Assembly (NCBI GenBank): GCA_004298675.1
Contig: SCRI01000085.1
Span: 1-27,669, forward strand
Direction of reading: 5' to 3'
DNA length: 27,669 nucleotides
DNA from: a bacterium
Lineage (GTDB): Bacteria; Vulcanimicrobiota; Vulcanimicrobiia; Vulcanimicrobiales; SCRA01
In this document: piece by piece, positions 1,167 to 22,843 of the stretch
Layout: each line of letters starts with the position of its first letter
Numbering within the stretch: the first letter of the stretch is position 1
Made by a program: the position numbers and the translations under genes
Notes under the pieces: model-generated
Database searches by the model: none
The model's input: the letters and a program-made list of their open reading frames with translations, nothing else
Told to the model about the DNA's origin: nothing

Positions 1167-1667
1167 ATGCTTTCGACGATCGTAGACCTTTGGCGCAAGC
1201 GGCGTCCCGGTCCAGCGGGGCCATTCGAGGAGGGCGTCGCGGCCATCGAGGCCGGACGCTACCAAGAAGCCTATCATCTCCTGACGCGCGCGCTCCACGA
1301 TCCCGCGGCCGACGCCGTGCTGGCGGCGGGCATCTACAATAAGCGCGGCGTGGCGCTGGTACACCAGGGGCGGCACGAGGAGGCCTCGGCCGACTTCGCG
1401 GCGGCGATCGCCAGCGATCCGGCCTGTACCTCGGCCATCGTCAACGTCGGCAACTTGGCGCTAGAGCGCGGGGATCTGGAGACGGCCGTCGAGCGCTACG
1501 AGGCGGCGTTGCGCATCGACGAGGAGTGCGCGCTGGCCCACCACAACCTGGGCACCGCCTACCGCCGCATGGGACGCCGCGCCGAGAGCGTGGCCCACCT
1601 GAAGGCGGCCGACAAAATCCGCAGCCGGACCTGGTTCGTTCGCCTGCGCGATCGCACGCCGCGCTAG
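1167..1667 (+). CDS. Tetratricopeptide repeat protein
   Basis: This 166-residue cytoplasmic protein has about three consecutive TPR units (roughly residues 20-145), recognisable from patterns such as AIYNKRGVAL, AIVNVGNLALERGD and AHHNLGTAYRRMGR, each followed by a helix ending in A-x-x-x-D-P or equivalent. TPRs make protein-protein contacts; no catalytic domain is visible and the partner is unknown. The ATG at 1167 was chosen because the longer open frame reads antisense through trmD. It diverges from trmD with 37 bases between starts. Its TAG overlaps the stop codon of the convergent gene by four bases. Confidence 0.85.
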   Translation: MLSTIVDLWRKRRPGPAGPFEEGVAAIEAGRYQEAYHLLTRALHDPAADAVLAAGIYNKRGVALVHQGRHEEASADFAAAIASDPACTSAIVNVGNLALERGDLETAVERYEAALRIDEECALAHHNLGTAYRRMGRRAESVAHLKAADKIRSRTWFVRLRDRTPR

Positions 1668-2134
1668 ACCTGCTCGACCTCGGTGCTGGTGATCTCTTCC
1701 AAGTATTCGAAGAGCTGCGGCAGGGTGATCTTCTCGAGGGCGTTACGCTTGAGCTGATCGCCGCCGCCCTCGTCGCCGTCATCCCGTAGATAGCAGCGCG
1801 ACTCGACTTCGCCAACCTCGCTGTAGAAGACGACCGCGAAGCCCTTGCCTACCGTCTCGTCGTAGATGCGCATCGCTTGCGGGTTGACCACCTCGACCGA
1901 GTGCGCCGGATTCCCAGCGTCGTAGATCGTGATGGTGAGGTAGTCCCGGTTGGTGACCTCGATGGCGCGGACCACGAAGGTGTTCTTGGCGGAGTAGAAC
2001 TCTTGGCCGCGCCGGAAGCGCGAAGAGATCTCATAGAACACCCGGTGGCCGGTGAAGCGGCCGAGGATCTTCTTGAGCGTGGCGAGCGACGCTAGGGTCT
2101 CGACACGGTTGGTACGCGTGTAGATGATCTTCAA
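1664..2134 (-). CDS. Conserved-looking protein of unknown function
   Basis: I do not recognise this family. From a TTG start the product is 156 residues beginning LKIIYTRTNRVETLASL. It is rich in beta-prone segments (TFVVRAIEVT, YLTITIYDAG, FAVVFYSEVG), has no signal peptide or membrane segment, and ends in an acidic helix (LPQLFEYLEEITSTEVEQV). The frame stays open to 2338, but that stretch is antisense to the tatA-like gene, so the TTG at 2134 is the better guess. It is transcribed divergently from the tatA-like gene with 78 bases between starts, and its stop overlaps the TPR gene stop. The coding call rests on codon structure and composition; the function is open. Confidence 0.65.
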   Translation of the reverse strand: MKIIYTRTNRVETLASLATLKKILGRFTGHRVFYEISSRFRRGQEFYSAKNTFVVRAIEVTNRDYLTITIYDAGNPAHSVEVVNPQAMRIYDETVGKGFAVVFYSEVGEVESRCYLRDDGDEGGGDQLKRNALEKITLPQLFEYLEEITSTEVEQV

Positions 2135-2212
2135 GCTCGCGGTAAACTCCGGACCCAAAGCCTTTTGCGGAACGGCAGGAAAGCCCTGCGGCGGCGCAAG
2201 AACCCGCCGTCC

Positions 2213-2605
2213 ATGCTCTCGATTCCCGACGTTGCGATCCTCGGAGGCCTCGCGCTCCTGCTCTTCGGACCCGAGCGCCTGCCCAAGATCGCGCGCGACG
2301 CCGGGCGCGTGATGCGCGATCTCCAAAACACGAGCCAAGCCTTCGTGAGGGAACTGGAGCGGGCGGCGGATACCGCTGAGGAAGAGGCCCGGCTAGCGGA
2401 GCTACGCAAGGCCGAGGAGTCGCCTGTCGCCCAGCCCGCGGCCGTCACCGAGCTCGAACCCGTCGTGGAGTCCGAACCCGTCGTGGAGTCCGAACCCGTC
2501 GCGGAGTCCGAGCCGGTTGCGCACCCGCAGCAGCCAGCGGAATCCGTGACGCAGGAACACGCGGCTGAACCCGAGCTCCAGTACGAACGTCCGCCCGTCT
2601 TCTAA
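2213..2605 (+). CDS. tatA: Twin-arginine translocase TatA/TatB-family protein with an acidic tail
   Basis: Tat A/B proteins help export folded proteins across the cytoplasmic membrane. The 130-residue product has the family layout: a short N-terminus, one hydrophobic helix (VAILGGLALLLF, about residues 7-18), the hinge FGPERLP at 18-24 and an amphipathic helix (KIARDAGRVMRDLQ). The GPERLP form resembles TatB as much as TatA. After about residue 70 the tail is acidic and contains tandem EPVVES repeats. I chose the ATG at 2213 because it puts the helix near the N-terminus; a TTG at 2165 would add 16 basic residues. No tatC is nearby. Its TAA overlaps the stop codon of the convergent gene. Confidence 0.85.
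   Translation: MLSIPDVAILGGLALLLFGPERLPKIARDAGRVMRDLQNTSQAFVRELERAADTAEEEARLAELRKAEESPVAQPAAVTELEPVVESEPVVESEPVAESEPVAHPQQPAESVTQEHAAEPELQYERPPVF
2456..2509 (+). repeat. 18-base tandem repeat, three copies, inside the tatA-like gene
   Basis: The 18-base unit gaacccgtcgtggagtcc occurs at 2456-2473 and 2474-2491. A one-base variant is at 2492-2509 and a degenerate fourth copy follows. The repeat encodes EPVVES-type hexapeptides in the acidic cytoplasmic tail. Copy number could vary between strains. Confidence 0.9.
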
Positions 2606-18831: not shown

Positions 18832-19839
18832 TTAGATGTGGTCCGTCGACCACAGCGGATCGGCGGTCGCGTGCAGGAGCGTGGGGCCGTGCTGCGTCCA
18901 CAACGCCTGCGCGGTGCGAGAAAGCGGTGCAAGCATCAGGACCGCGTGCGACCGTCGCTTGACGCTGCCACGCGGGAGCACGCCACGCTGCGGCTGCGGC
19001 GGCAGCCAGCCCGCCACTTTTCCCAAGTCGCCGATGGCGGCGGAGAGCAGCGTGGGCAGCAGCTCCTCGTAACCATCCAACGCCCCCATCTCATCCAAGA
19101 CGTAGGCGTCACGGCGCGGCTGGCGCCAACCTTTGACGTATGCGCGCACCGTACACCCTTCGCGCACCACCAGACGCACCGGTTGGAAGAAGCGCTGCGC
19201 GGGTGAGGCCTCGTCCTGCCGCTCGCGCAGGCGGATCGCATCCCAGATCACGGGCGTGCGCACGAGCGCAAACGGTCGCCGCGCCGCGCCCACGTCGTAG
19301 CACTTGCGAACGCCGCCGGCATCGGCATCCTCCATGGCGGAGATCACCGCGCGACCGCGTGCGAGTGAGGAGGCACGCGCGGTGAAACTGCGCGAGGGGA
19401 GCGCGGTGAAACCCAGACGCTCGTAGAAGGCGGGGTGGAGGTCGGAGAAGAGGAAGGCGAGATCGGTGCCCTCGTCGCGCTCGCGATCGAGGAACGCGCC
19501 GAGCATCAATGAGGCCAAGCCGCGCCGGCGCTCAGCCGGCAGTGTGAAGACGGCGCCGATACCGGCGGCGCGCAGACGGCGCTGCTCCCACGCGATCTCG
19601 CGTCCGTAGCGCTTGAAACAGCTTTGTACGCGTCCGTGCTCGCCGCGCACGCCGTGAAACGAGAACGAGCGCTTGCCGAACGAGCTGTGTTCGAAATCGC
19701 GCAGATCCGTGACGTACTGCTCGTAGCTGCGCTCGTAACCCCAGAGCTTGAACGTCTCCGGCAGCACCTGCGCGGCAAGCTCCTCCGCATTCAGCCGTTC
19801 GAGGCGTATCAACTCCTGCGGGTGCGGCAACGGATCCAT
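18832..19839 (-). CDS. GNAT acetyltransferase, Eis-like two-domain type
   Basis: The 335-residue product has an N-terminal GNAT fold with the acetyl-CoA segment GAVFTLPAERRRGLASLML (about 95-113) and the family end FYERLGF (about 139-145). A long C-terminal half follows, with a second GNAT-like region, as in Eis-type enzymes. Those acetylate amines or proteins, but the target here is unknown. The ATG at 19839 overlaps the helicase stop (TGATG), and a GTG at 19842 is also possible. It is the third gene of a nuclease-helicase-acetyltransferase operon, so its target might be a repair protein; that link is inference. Confidence 0.85.
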   Translation of the reverse strand: MDPLPHPQELIRLERLNAEELAAQVLPETFKLWGYERSYEQYVTDLRDFEHSSFGKRSFSFHGVRGEHGRVQSCFKRYGREIAWEQRRLRAAGIGAVFTLPAERRRGLASLMLGAFLDRERDEGTDLAFLFSDLHPAFYERLGFTALPSRSFTARASSLARGRAVISAMEDADAGGVRKCYDVGAARRPFALVRTPVIWDAIRLRERQDEASPAQRFFQPVRLVVREGCTVRAYVKGWRQPRRDAYVLDEMGALDGYEELLPTLLSAAIGDLGKVAGWLPPQPQRGVLPRGSVKRRSHAVLMLAPLSRTAQALWTQHGPTLLHATADPLWSTDHI

Positions 19840-21896
19840 CACTCCAGAGTGCGCGTCTGCGCGCTCTGAACCCTCCGCAACTCTTCGAGCAACTCGGGGT
19901 TGCGCAGCGCGCGGGTGGCGCGTCCGTGCGCCGTGACGAAGAGCAGCGAGCGAGCTCGCGCCAGCACTGCCATGAAGAGCGAGCGTTCGCGCGCGTAGTA
20001 CTTCTCGGCCACGCGCTGTTTGGCGGAGTACCAGGCATATTTCGCCGTCTGCGCCTCGCCGCCGTCGGCAACGTTTTCGCGCGCGATCAGCCCGTAGCGC
20101 GGACTGTAGTAGAAGCTAGGCGGCGAGTAGTAACGCGGAAACGAGCCCGCCTGCGCGCCAATGGCAAAGAGTGCCTCGAACTCGCGCCCGTATGTCTCTT
20201 CGGCCGCCAACAGCGCTACCGCGTCGGGCTCCAGCGGCAGATCGTGCGGCAGGTCCACGTCGCGTTCGGCGAGATCGTCGGCCTCGTGCAGGAACGCGTC
20301 GATTCCCGCGCCTGGGTGCGCGAGCGCGAAGGCACGCGCCTGCGACAGTAGACGCGAGAGTTGGCGGCGCTGGTGGCGCGCCTGCACGCCGGGGCCGCCG
20401 GCGATCCAGGCCGCCATGCCGCTCTCGTCGGCGATGCGCGCGAGCAGCACGTCCAAAGCGCACTCCTGCGCCCACGCGCGCCAGCGTAGCAGCGCCGCGC
20501 GCAGCGTACGCACGCGCGCACGGGCAGCCTCCGAGAGTTGCTCGTCGACCAGTCCCTCCAGCACGTTGCGCGCCAGGCGCTCGCCGCGCTCGGCACGGCG
20601 TGCCCCACGCTCCGTGCGCTCCAGCTCCTCGAAGAGTGCCGTCTGCGGCCCGGGCGGCGCGCCGCAGAGCCGGTAGATGGAGGCGTCGGAGAGCGCGATG
20701 GGCGGGACTTGCAGCGCGCGCAGCATGCGCACGGCGTCGTGCGGATTCCAGGCCGCGCCCGCCAAGGCCAGCACGTCGAGAACGGTGGCGTCGTCGAAGA
20801 GGCTGGTGCTGCCCAGGTACTGGTACGGCAGGCCGCGCGTAGTCAGCGCCGCGGCCACGGCAGCCGTGCCGCGGATGTCGCGCGCGACCACGGCGATCTC
20901 ACCCAGGGAGATGTCGCGCTCGCGTGCCAGCGCGGCGATCCGGTCGGCGACGAAAGAGGCTTCATCGGCGGCATCGGTGCCGCGATAGAGCGTGGCGCGC
21001 GGGCGGCTGGGGGCGCGGTGCGCGTGCTCCAACCGTACCGTCGCGAGGGTCGTGACCAAACCGTCGATCGCCTCGGCCGCGGCCAGTGTGACGCCGTGCA
21101 GCTCCGCCCCGTAGAGCGATCGCAGCAGCTCCAGCTCCCGGGCACGGCAGGCATGGGCATCGTCGACCAGGCACAACGGGTAGGCCAGACGGTGGCTGCG
21201 TGCGAGCGCGTCGTCTGCTTGCATGCGCGCGGCGAGATCGGCGTACAACGTCGCGGCCGTCACCGTGCGCGCCTGCGCCGTCGCCTCCAGGAAGGCCTCG
21301 TAGAGACGCGCGAGCACGGCCGCCAGCTCCAGCTCGCGGCCGCGCTGCGCCGCCAGCGTCTGCGCGTCGAGCTCGACATGGACGCGGCCGTAGAAGGCTT
21401 CGGCCCCGGCGCGCGCGCCCTCGAGAAACGCTGGCGGCGCGATGCCGGCATCGTGCAGCTTGAGGATCAGCGCGAGCGCGTCGTCCCGGAAGTGTTCCGG
21501 CCAACTCAGGCCCGGCTGCTCGGGATCGAGCTCACCGCGCTCGAATTCGGGCCACGCCAGCGCGAAGAGCGGCTCGATGCAGTGCTCGAAGATGCGCGCG
21601 GCCTCGACGTGCGCGAGCGTGGCGCGCCCGGCTAACAGCAGCGGCAGATCGTCGAAGCGGCGCACGCTCACGCTCTCGCAGTCCAATGCACGTAGGCGTG
21701 CCGCCAAGCGCGCGCGGGCACCCTCGCCGTGAGCGATTACTAAGACGCCGCGCGCGTGGGCCGCCGCGCGCGCGGCACGGCGCGCGAGGACCTCGCTCTT
21801 CCCGCTGCCCGTCGCGCCGATCACCAGCAGCGCGTCGTCTAGCGGTGCCTCCACCGCGTCCCGTTGCGCGCCGTCGAGCCCCTCCAGTAGATTCAA
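19839..21896 (-). CDS. UvrD/AddA-like helicase protein with degenerate motor motifs
   Basis: This 685-residue SF1A-like protein keeps a Q motif (LDGAQRDAVE, 7-16) and Walker A (GATGSGKS, 27-34). Motif II reads VDDAHA (about 244-249) instead of DEAQD, motif III (GDxxQ) is not recognisable, motif V reads EETYGREFE, and motif VI is LARAR. The segment ISLGEIAVVARD...LPYQYLGSTSLFDD is typical UvrD domain 2A. It resembles the weak or vestigial motor subunits of AddAB/AdnAB enzymes. The TTG at 21896 overlaps the nuclease stop (TTGA), so I prefer it to an upstream start at 21965. It is probably a partner of the upstream nuclease. Confidence 0.85.
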   Translation of the reverse strand: MNLLEGLDGAQRDAVEAPLDDALLVIGATGSGKSEVLARRAARAAAHARGVLVIAHGEGARARLAARLRALDCESVSVRRFDDLPLLLAGRATLAHVEAARIFEHCIEPLFALAWPEFERGELDPEQPGLSWPEHFRDDALALILKLHDAGIAPPAFLEGARAGAEAFYGRVHVELDAQTLAAQRGRELELAAVLARLYEAFLEATAQARTVTAATLYADLAARMQADDALARSHRLAYPLCLVDDAHACRARELELLRSLYGAELHGVTLAAAEAIDGLVTTLATVRLEHAHRAPSRPRATLYRGTDAADEASFVADRIAALARERDISLGEIAVVARDIRGTAAVAAALTTRGLPYQYLGSTSLFDDATVLDVLALAGAAWNPHDAVRMLRALQVPPIALSDASIYRLCGAPPGPQTALFEELERTERGARRAERGERLARNVLEGLVDEQLSEAARARVRTLRAALLRWRAWAQECALDVLLARIADESGMAAWIAGGPGVQARHQRRQLSRLLSQARAFALAHPGAGIDAFLHEADDLAERDVDLPHDLPLEPDAVALLAAEETYGREFEALFAIGAQAGSFPRYYSPPSFYYSPRYGLIARENVADGGEAQTAKYAWYSAKQRVAEKYYARERSLFMAVLARARSLLFVTAHGRATRALRNPELLEELRRVQSAQTRTLE

Positions 21897-22843
21897 CGCG
21901 CGAACTCGAGGGGCGCTGGCGCGGGGCGCTCGCGGCACGCGCGCGCGTAGACGCAGTAGCGGCACGGCGGGTCTTCCCCCACCTCGTAGCGTGCGATGCC
22001 GCTGCGCGTGATGCGCTCGCAGATTTCGACCATCGCGTGCCGGCTGCGCTCTAGCTCCTGCTCGGTCACGATGCCGCTCTTCGAACGATAGTCTGGGCGC
22101 GGCGGCGGCTCCGGCGCGATGCGCACTTCCAACGGCTCGACGGGTTGGCCTGGGTCTTTGAGCTGGATCAGCGCGAGGCTGGCCACCCGATCGCCTTGCA
22201 TGCGCCGCGCCCAGTAGTAGAACGGCAACTGGAAGTCCAGGCCGGCGTTGACGCTCTCGCGGTAGGCGTGGGCGCTATGGGGAATGCTGCCGGTCTTGTA
22301 GTCGATGATCGTGACTTCGCCGCTGACGAGCGAGCGATCGATGCGGTCGATGTAGCCGACGAAGGCGTAGCCTTCGAGGTCGAGCTCTTGGCGCGATTCG
22401 ACGGCTACGACCTCGAAGGGTTCGCGGCGCGCGCGCTCGACCAGCCAGCAGGTGTAGCGCCGCGCCACGCGGCGCGCCTTGCGGCGCCCCAGCTCCGCCT
22501 GCACCGCCCAGGTGAACTCGCTCGCGGCCGCGCGGAAGACTTCGTCGACCAGCGTCACGAGCCGCTGCTCCAGGACCGTGGGATCGGCTTCGTGCGGACG
22601 GCGATACTCCGCATGGAAGCGCTCGAGCGCGCGATGCACGAGCGTGCCGTAGAGCGTGAAGTAGGTGCCGTCGTCCTCCACGGCGTCGCAGAGGTAGCGG
22701 AAGAAATATTGCCGCGGGCAGTTCGCGAACGTGTTGAGCTGCGATGCGCTGAAGTACGGGCGCGCGGCCGCGAACGGCGTGGGTGGATCGGTGGGGAGAT
22801 CGGCGAAGATGCCGGCACTGGGATGCTCTGGGAACACGCTCAC
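21893..22843 (-). CDS. RecB/AddB-type PD-(D/E)XK nuclease with iron-sulfur cysteines
   Basis: The 316-residue product is a stand-alone PDDEXK_1-type nuclease. It has SASQLNTFANCPRQYFFRYL (Cys42), GTLVHRALERFH (His70), GYIDRIDR (Asp166, Asp169), EVTIIDYKTG (Asp181, Lys183), QLPFYYWARR (Gln205), and a C-terminal CRYCVYARAC with Cys294, Cys297 and Cys303. Those three with Cys42 match the 4Fe-4S clamp of AddB and Cas4. All catalytic positions are present, so it should be active. The start is a GTG at 22843. The helicase gene begins at its stop with a four-base overlap. A role in double-strand break end processing is inferred from family and context. Confidence 0.93.
   Translation of the reverse strand: MSVFPEHPSAGIFADLPTDPPTPFAAARPYFSASQLNTFANCPRQYFFRYLCDAVEDDGTYFTLYGTLVHRALERFHAEYRRPHEADPTVLEQRLVTLVDEVFRAAASEFTWAVQAELGRRKARRVARRYTCWLVERARREPFEVVAVESRQELDLEGYAFVGYIDRIDRSLVSGEVTIIDYKTGSIPHSAHAYRESVNAGLDFQLPFYYWARRMQGDRVASLALIQLKDPGQPVEPLEVRIAPEPPPRPDYRSKSGIVTEQELERSRHAMVEICERITRSGIARYEVGEDPPCRYCVYARACRERPAPAPLEFAR

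Follow-up and report, generated by a model that had tools for sequence, protein, structure and literature searches.

The locus comprises three genes at positions 18,832–22,843 of a 27,669-nucleotide stretch of DNA, the whole of which is called the window. The genes are consecutive and all on the minus strand, with overlaps of 1–4 bases, and look co-transcribed. They encode a RecB-family nuclease (316 amino acids; Pfam PDDEXK_1, 2e-39), a UvrD-like protein (685 amino acids; UvrD_C, 2e-14, with a weak match to the UvrD-helicase N-terminal domain, 3e-5), and a GNAT acetyltransferase (Acetyltransf_9, 3e-12). The features are given below, with their evidence in parentheses.

21893..22843, minus strand: nuclease, predicted Fe-S RecB family (PDDEXK_1), very likely AdnA/AddB-derived with the helicase half lost (Pfam, alignment, profile scores, tree)
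19839..21896, minus strand: helicase-like protein, UvrD-like, very likely AdnB/AddA-derived, with eroded motor motifs and without a nuclease domain (Pfam, motifs, model, tree)
18832..19842, minus strand: GNAT acetyltransferase (Acetyltransf_9), third gene and order-specific partner (Pfam, neighborhood counts)
21893..21896, minus strand: TTGA, 4-base stop/start overlap of nuclease and helicase (sequence; an NTGA overlap occurs likewise in relatives)
19839..19842, minus strand: GTGA, stop/start overlap of helicase and GNAT (sequence)

The best start for the helicase is TTG at 21896, and its frame stays open to a GTG at 21965. The GNAT gene starts either at GTG 19842, giving the 4-base overlap with the helicase, or at ATG 19839, giving a 1-base overlap. 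Elsewhere in the window, an open reading frame of 224 amino acids (1664–2338, minus strand) has no Pfam match at 0.001; its start was possibly set too early.

Conservation of the nuclease–helicase pair

Counts below refer to the class Eremiobacteriia and the phylum Eremiobacterota. G000 denotes the window's genome and G004 that of Vulcanimicrobium alpinus WC8-2, a cultivated species with a complete genome from the same order. The helicase had matches in 98 of 101 close relatives, with only other UvrD/AdnB-type proteins matching in a few of these (e.g., G001). A phylum-wide search placed it in nearly all class members, across two orders, and nearly every member carries the nuclease–helicase pair. 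Among the matches listed, a single one fell outside the class; it was weak and partial (E 7e-22, profile positions 228–432), with the size and span seen for ordinary UvrD matches. A scan of the whole GTDB with the helicase as the only query returned one locus, which is in the class. Our statements on the distribution of the pair apply within the phylum. Searches of viral contigs found no relative of the pair, and plasmids gave only partial matches, to ordinary helicases.

In 53 of 57 genomes, the nuclease gene lies upstream of the helicase gene and in the same orientation, at most 200 nucleotides apart in 51; the four exceptions have the partner on a different contig or past a contig end. The operon proposed in the sequence-only reading is thus confirmed as a conserved one, and among the 57 genomes we did not find the helicase occurring regularly without the nuclease. 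Between the window and its nearest relative, dN/dS is 0.21, 0.19, and 0.16 for the three genes, such that none of them looks to be decaying; selection is purifying. Together with the kept gene order, these values argue that the operon is more than a chance arrangement.

The largest interruption between nuclease and helicase among the 57 genomes is a gene for a Ser/Thr-rich repeat protein (L093 3220–4551, in G030). Three loci (L029, L036, and L049) appeared to encode nuclease–helicase fusions as single open reading frames. We rejected these, since the frames lack the nuclease motif DYKTG and are thus GC-rich overlapping frames rather than fusions.

Catalytic and motor motifs

Alignment of 20 nuclease homologs showed that the catalytic residues H70, D166, D181-Y-K183, Q205, and Y209 are invariant, as are cysteines 42, 294, 297, and 303. 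RecB-family catalytic motifs combined with four domain-spanning cysteines, as found here, are the mark of an Fe-S or ‘iron staple’ nuclease, and the protein is predicted to be one. This pattern has been described for the AddB, Dna2, and Cas4 nucleases (PMC7430649). The earlier recognition of an intact Fe-S RecB nuclease therefore stands.

The helicase motifs were examined by aligning 19 homologs with intact AdnB, AdnA, and PcrA proteins of the same lineage. Walker A (GK[S/T]) and the motif VI arginine are kept in all 19. In essentially all of them, however, motif Ia is missing or unrecognizable, motif III no longer has its glutamine, and motif V no longer has T-x-H; the window protein lacks motif III altogether. 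The motif II glutamate is replaced in 16 (by Asp in 15 and Asn in one) and retained in three. In AdnB of the same lineage, these motor motifs are intact. As the erosion is common to the whole helicase family, it is not a sequencing artifact of one genome; alignment thus bears out the description of a UvrD-like protein with an eroded motor, whose motifs are not intact. The protein ends shortly past motif VI. It scores 30–72 bits against the NCBIfam pcrA, uvrD, and rep models (cut-offs of 911 or more), and the full set of intact SF1A motifs that defines UvrD, PcrA, and Rep is absent. To judge from its motifs, the protein is likely to have lost motor function. It can probably still bind ATP, as the Walker A lysine is kept, and the three homologs with a motif II glutamate suggest that a weak ATPase may persist in some members.

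Ancestry of the two subunits

The two proteins resemble different subunits of AdnAB. The nuclease scored 82–111 bits against the AdnA nucleases of related genomes versus 12–31 against those of AdnB, and in a tree it groups with AdnA against AdnB (support 95/93). The helicase had the opposite preference, with 120–215 bits to AdnB versus 68–91 to AdnA of related genomes; its scores to UvrD (135) and PcrA (127) lie inside the AdnB range. It groups with AdnB in the tree with moderate support (81/73). The AlphaFold model of the helicase (pLDDT 83) also fits AdnB (TMq 0.62–0.68, mostly 0.65–0.68) and AddA (0.63–0.66) better than AddB (0.49–0.51) or AdnA (0.49–0.56), with RecB and UvrD likewise below AdnB and AddA. 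In VIA-align, AdnB and AddA gave Z of 19.5–20.8 over ~565–645 residues with rmsd of 4–5.5; UvrD and Rep tie with them on Z, but over fewer residues and with larger rmsd. Gene 2 is most plausibly an AdnB/AddA subunit stripped of its nuclease.

The N-terminus of the nuclease provides a second view of its origin. Whereas the window's family has ~30 residues ahead of the nuclease domain, there are ~330 or more in genus g2 (V. alpinus), 240–450 in family f3, and ~130–200 in most of family f2, a few members of which have ~30. In the model of the extended V. alpinus nuclease, residues 154–607 align with AddB 378–1139 (Z 18.5, 415 residues) and with AdnA 413–1039 (Z 18.0), as compared to Z of 14 or less for stand-alone nucleases. 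Residues 154–297 by themselves superpose on the PcrA 2B region (Z 11.2, rmsd 3.4). The two-domain fits have a large overall rmsd of ~11 Å, as is expected if the domains sit differently, and the first 150 residues of the remnant are modeled with low confidence. Profile–profile comparison (hhalign) of the remnant gave nothing significant to AdnA, the best hit being to AdnB (E 0.0016). From the structural match, the N-terminal segment is best read as a putative helicase remnant of the AdnA/AddB 2B type, and gene 1 as an AdnA/AddB subunit whose helicase was lost progressively. The series of 330 or more, 130–200, and 30 residues would then offer natural intermediates for how such machines lose parts.

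Taken together, the operon is very likely of the adnA-adnB (addB-addA) type after reciprocal domain loss, AdnA having lost its helicase and AdnB its nuclease. The sequence-only reading had instead taken the two genes for a single AddB/AdnA-like polypeptide split in two with its halves swapped, the active motor being encoded elsewhere. That proposal is in keeping with the AddB/AdnA-like profile of the nuclease, with a helicase that is degenerate as that of AddB is, and with the presence of a complete AdnAB elsewhere in G000. We consider it highly improbable, as profile, tree, and structure all place the helicase nearer to AdnB/AddA than to AdnA/AddB, so that the gene order is the ordinary adnA-adnB one and no permutation is needed. 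Moreover, the nuclease of relatives bears the 2B remnant of AdnA/AddB in addition to a separate helicase, and the helicase therefore cannot simply be the nuclease's missing half. The idea of a half-complex with its active motor elsewhere also fails, given that G000 has its own complete two-subunit AdnAB and most relatives lack a second motor-nuclease of the AddA/AdnB type. Specifically, we rejected the pair as one half of the AdnAB in G000, which is complete elsewhere, with its AdnB split by a contig end only.

Comparison with known systems places the operon close to, but outside, AdnAB and AddAB. As in AdnAB, the genes are adjacent and in adnA-adnB order (in 53 of 57 genomes), with the nuclease nearest that of AdnA and the helicase nearest that of AdnB. 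Unlike AdnA and AdnB, each of which bears a helicase and a nuclease (PMC13309787), the subunits here have one domain each. Neither combines an N-terminal UvrD-like motor with a C-terminal nuclease, and the AdnB-type motor is eroded, with motifs that do not predict an active SF1 motor. With AddAB/RexAB, the operon shares an AddB-type Fe-S nuclease, a degenerate helicase module that retains its P-loop, and the fit of the extended V. alpinus nuclease to AddB. In AddAB, however, AddB joins an inactive helicase to its nuclease in one chain, and the active motor-nuclease is AddA. Here the degenerate helicase is of the AddA/AdnB type and has neither the activity (to judge from its motifs) nor the C-terminal nuclease of AddA; the window nuclease, with its ~30 residues before the domain, has no fused helicase; and there is no second nuclease or scanning module. 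As the defining domain features of both systems were examined and are absent, we regard the operon as a variant of the AdnAB/AddAB kind and not a member.

Similarity to other nucleases is more limited. Dna2 and the bacterial Dna2-like Bad also place an ‘iron staple’ RecB nuclease first, beside an SF1 helicase module, but in them one chain holds both parts and the helicase is SF1B (PMC7430649), whereas the operon helicase is SF1A, UvrD-like, and separate, and the structural match to Dna2 spans the nuclease only. Solo Cas4 and Cas4-like proteins share the four-cysteine PD-(D/E)XK nuclease and weak Cas4 profile matches; in contrast to these, the operon nuclease matches PDDEXK_1 and AdnA/AddB far more strongly, has a constant helicase partner, and has no cas genes alongside. 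A text search of the literature, with the founding AdnAB papers outside its reach, returned no description of such a reduced nuclease–helicase pair.

Possible function in end processing

RecBCD, AddAB, or AdnAB is present in ~88% of sequenced bacterial genomes (PMC6452273). In G000, an intact AdnA-like protein of 1059 amino acids on contig C29 is followed by an AdnB-like protein broken only by the contig end (L017 3502–8709 on C29 and L018 1–1288 on C41). One and the same piece of protein is encoded at the ends of both C29 and C41, and both subunits have a helicase plus a nuclease. The nuclease–helicase pair therefore cannot be the sole resection enzyme in the window's genome. A full or partial AdnAB pattern occurs in six of the 57 genomes (G005, G007, G021, G022, G046, and G052). 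Most of family f3 has AdnAB and the pair, with the pair alone seen in G118 and G119, and most genomes of family f2 have no other long RecB-nuclease gene. In the complete genome of V. alpinus, the operon nuclease is the sole PDDEXK_1 match, UvrD_C matches only UvrD/PcrA and the operon helicase, and no other enzyme of the RecBCD/AddAB/AdnAB kind was found. From this distribution, the pair is an extra copy that diverged early and, in many lineages, was left as the only one. With a profile that was positive in 13 of 14 controls and that a very diverged RecJ could escape, RecJ (TIGR00644) went undetected in G000, G004, G009, G010, G011, G017, and G026; all seven genomes contain RecQ-family helicases and Ku.

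The complete AdnAB-like pair of G000 is itself an observation in Eremiobacterota, as compared to a survey of 5563 genomes that reported AdnAB exclusively from Actinobacteria (PMC6452273). A further locus of G000 (L020 957–4157, contig C58) carries a Cas4-Cas1 fusion gene after a gene for a 488-amino acid protein without a Pfam match; the locus, at a contig end, appears to belong to a CRISPR-Cas operon.

The distinct end-processing complex suggested earlier remains plausible, with an even chance or slightly less that the pair acts in end resection. The nuclease and helicase would form a heterodimer that recognizes DNA ends or single/double-strand junctions, in which the SF1 fold and its ATP binding might serve as a clamp or gate rather than a motor. 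Such a role has precedents. In AddAB, the inactive helicase fold of AddB acts as a scanner, and the Chi complex is modulated when ATP binds to a second AddB site (PMC4824097); in AdnA, ATP hydrolysis was undetected despite recognizable Walker motifs (PMC13309787). These cases establish a dead SF1 fold with a P-loop as a regulatory part of such machines. RecQ or UvrD may supply the unwinding, and the single remaining nuclease would cut one strand. In AddAB, the nuclease of AddB cuts the strand with the 5' end, and by analogy the operon nuclease would do likewise. If this strand choice holds, resection would leave a 3' tail, available to RecA without Chi control.

The account as a whole, a reciprocal-loss operon encoding an ATP-gated, motor-less, end-binding nuclease, is in our view more likely than not. 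One of its competitors is a true but weakly active helicase-nuclease, which would work as a compact AdnAB having a single motor and a single nuclease. Retention of Walker A and the motif VI arginine throughout, the motif II glutamate of three homologs, and the confidently predicted whole SF1A fold agree with it, but the losses in motifs Ia, II, III, and V described above make it unlikely. A defense or foreign-DNA nuclease, Gabija- or Cas4-like and not a recombination enzyme, is suggested by weak PADLOC profile matches, to GajB for the helicase and to Cas4 for the nuclease. In Gabija, however, GajB stands beside GajA, an ATPase-TOPRIM nuclease, and the partner here is a PDDEXK_1 nuclease with no match to GajA. 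The pair is also near-universal in the class, vertically inherited, and fixed in order among ordinary chromosomal genes, and it has neither viral relatives nor adjacent cas genes. A defensive role thus seems very improbable to us.

The preferred reading, of a motor-less end-binding nuclease, describes a class-wide relative of these machines under selection, in which both subunits lack a domain and the motor appears decayed while the nuclease is intact. It makes testable whether bacterial break repair can dispense with processive translocation and Chi scanning. A broader proposal is that across most of one order RecBCD/AddAB/AdnAB and RecJ have been replaced by this motor-less, Chi-independent pair, acting as an ATP-gated end clamp and nuclease with RecQ or UvrD unwinding, in a Dna2/BLM-like division of labor possibly controlled by the acetyltransferase. 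This is speculative, and we would not expect it to hold in full.

The acetyltransferase might act on the complex as a modifier, or its gene might simply be co-transcribed. It is a lineage-specific neighbor, seen in one order only, rather than a universal part. Of 57 genomes, 44 have the GNAT gene directly downstream (≤150 nucleotides) and eight more have it within 6 kb; no GNAT of the family was seen in the flanks retrieved around the pair in family f3 (the second order), and six of 61 genomes gave no match. A role as functional third subunit or regulator would account for the adjacency, the translational overlap in the window, the single copy in nearly all genomes having a GNAT, and its dN/dS of 0.16. 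The absences just noted, and the gene pairs of DUF1800/DUF1501 type that intervene in some relatives, leave this role doubtful. The operon GNAT resembles Eis-type GNATs in matching Acetyltransf_9 and, weakly, Eis2 structures, but it is shorter (~320–336 amino acids) and scores 22.9 bits against the NCBIfam Eis model (cut-off 576), well outside that family.

We also considered whether the genes that some relatives have between helicase and GNAT encode a missing motor, and rejected this, as the inserts are not helicases. The insert in L100 (1712–4400, same strand) consists of a DUF1800/DUF1501 pair, as tested there with Pfam, and similar pairs were seen in L092, L095, and L097.
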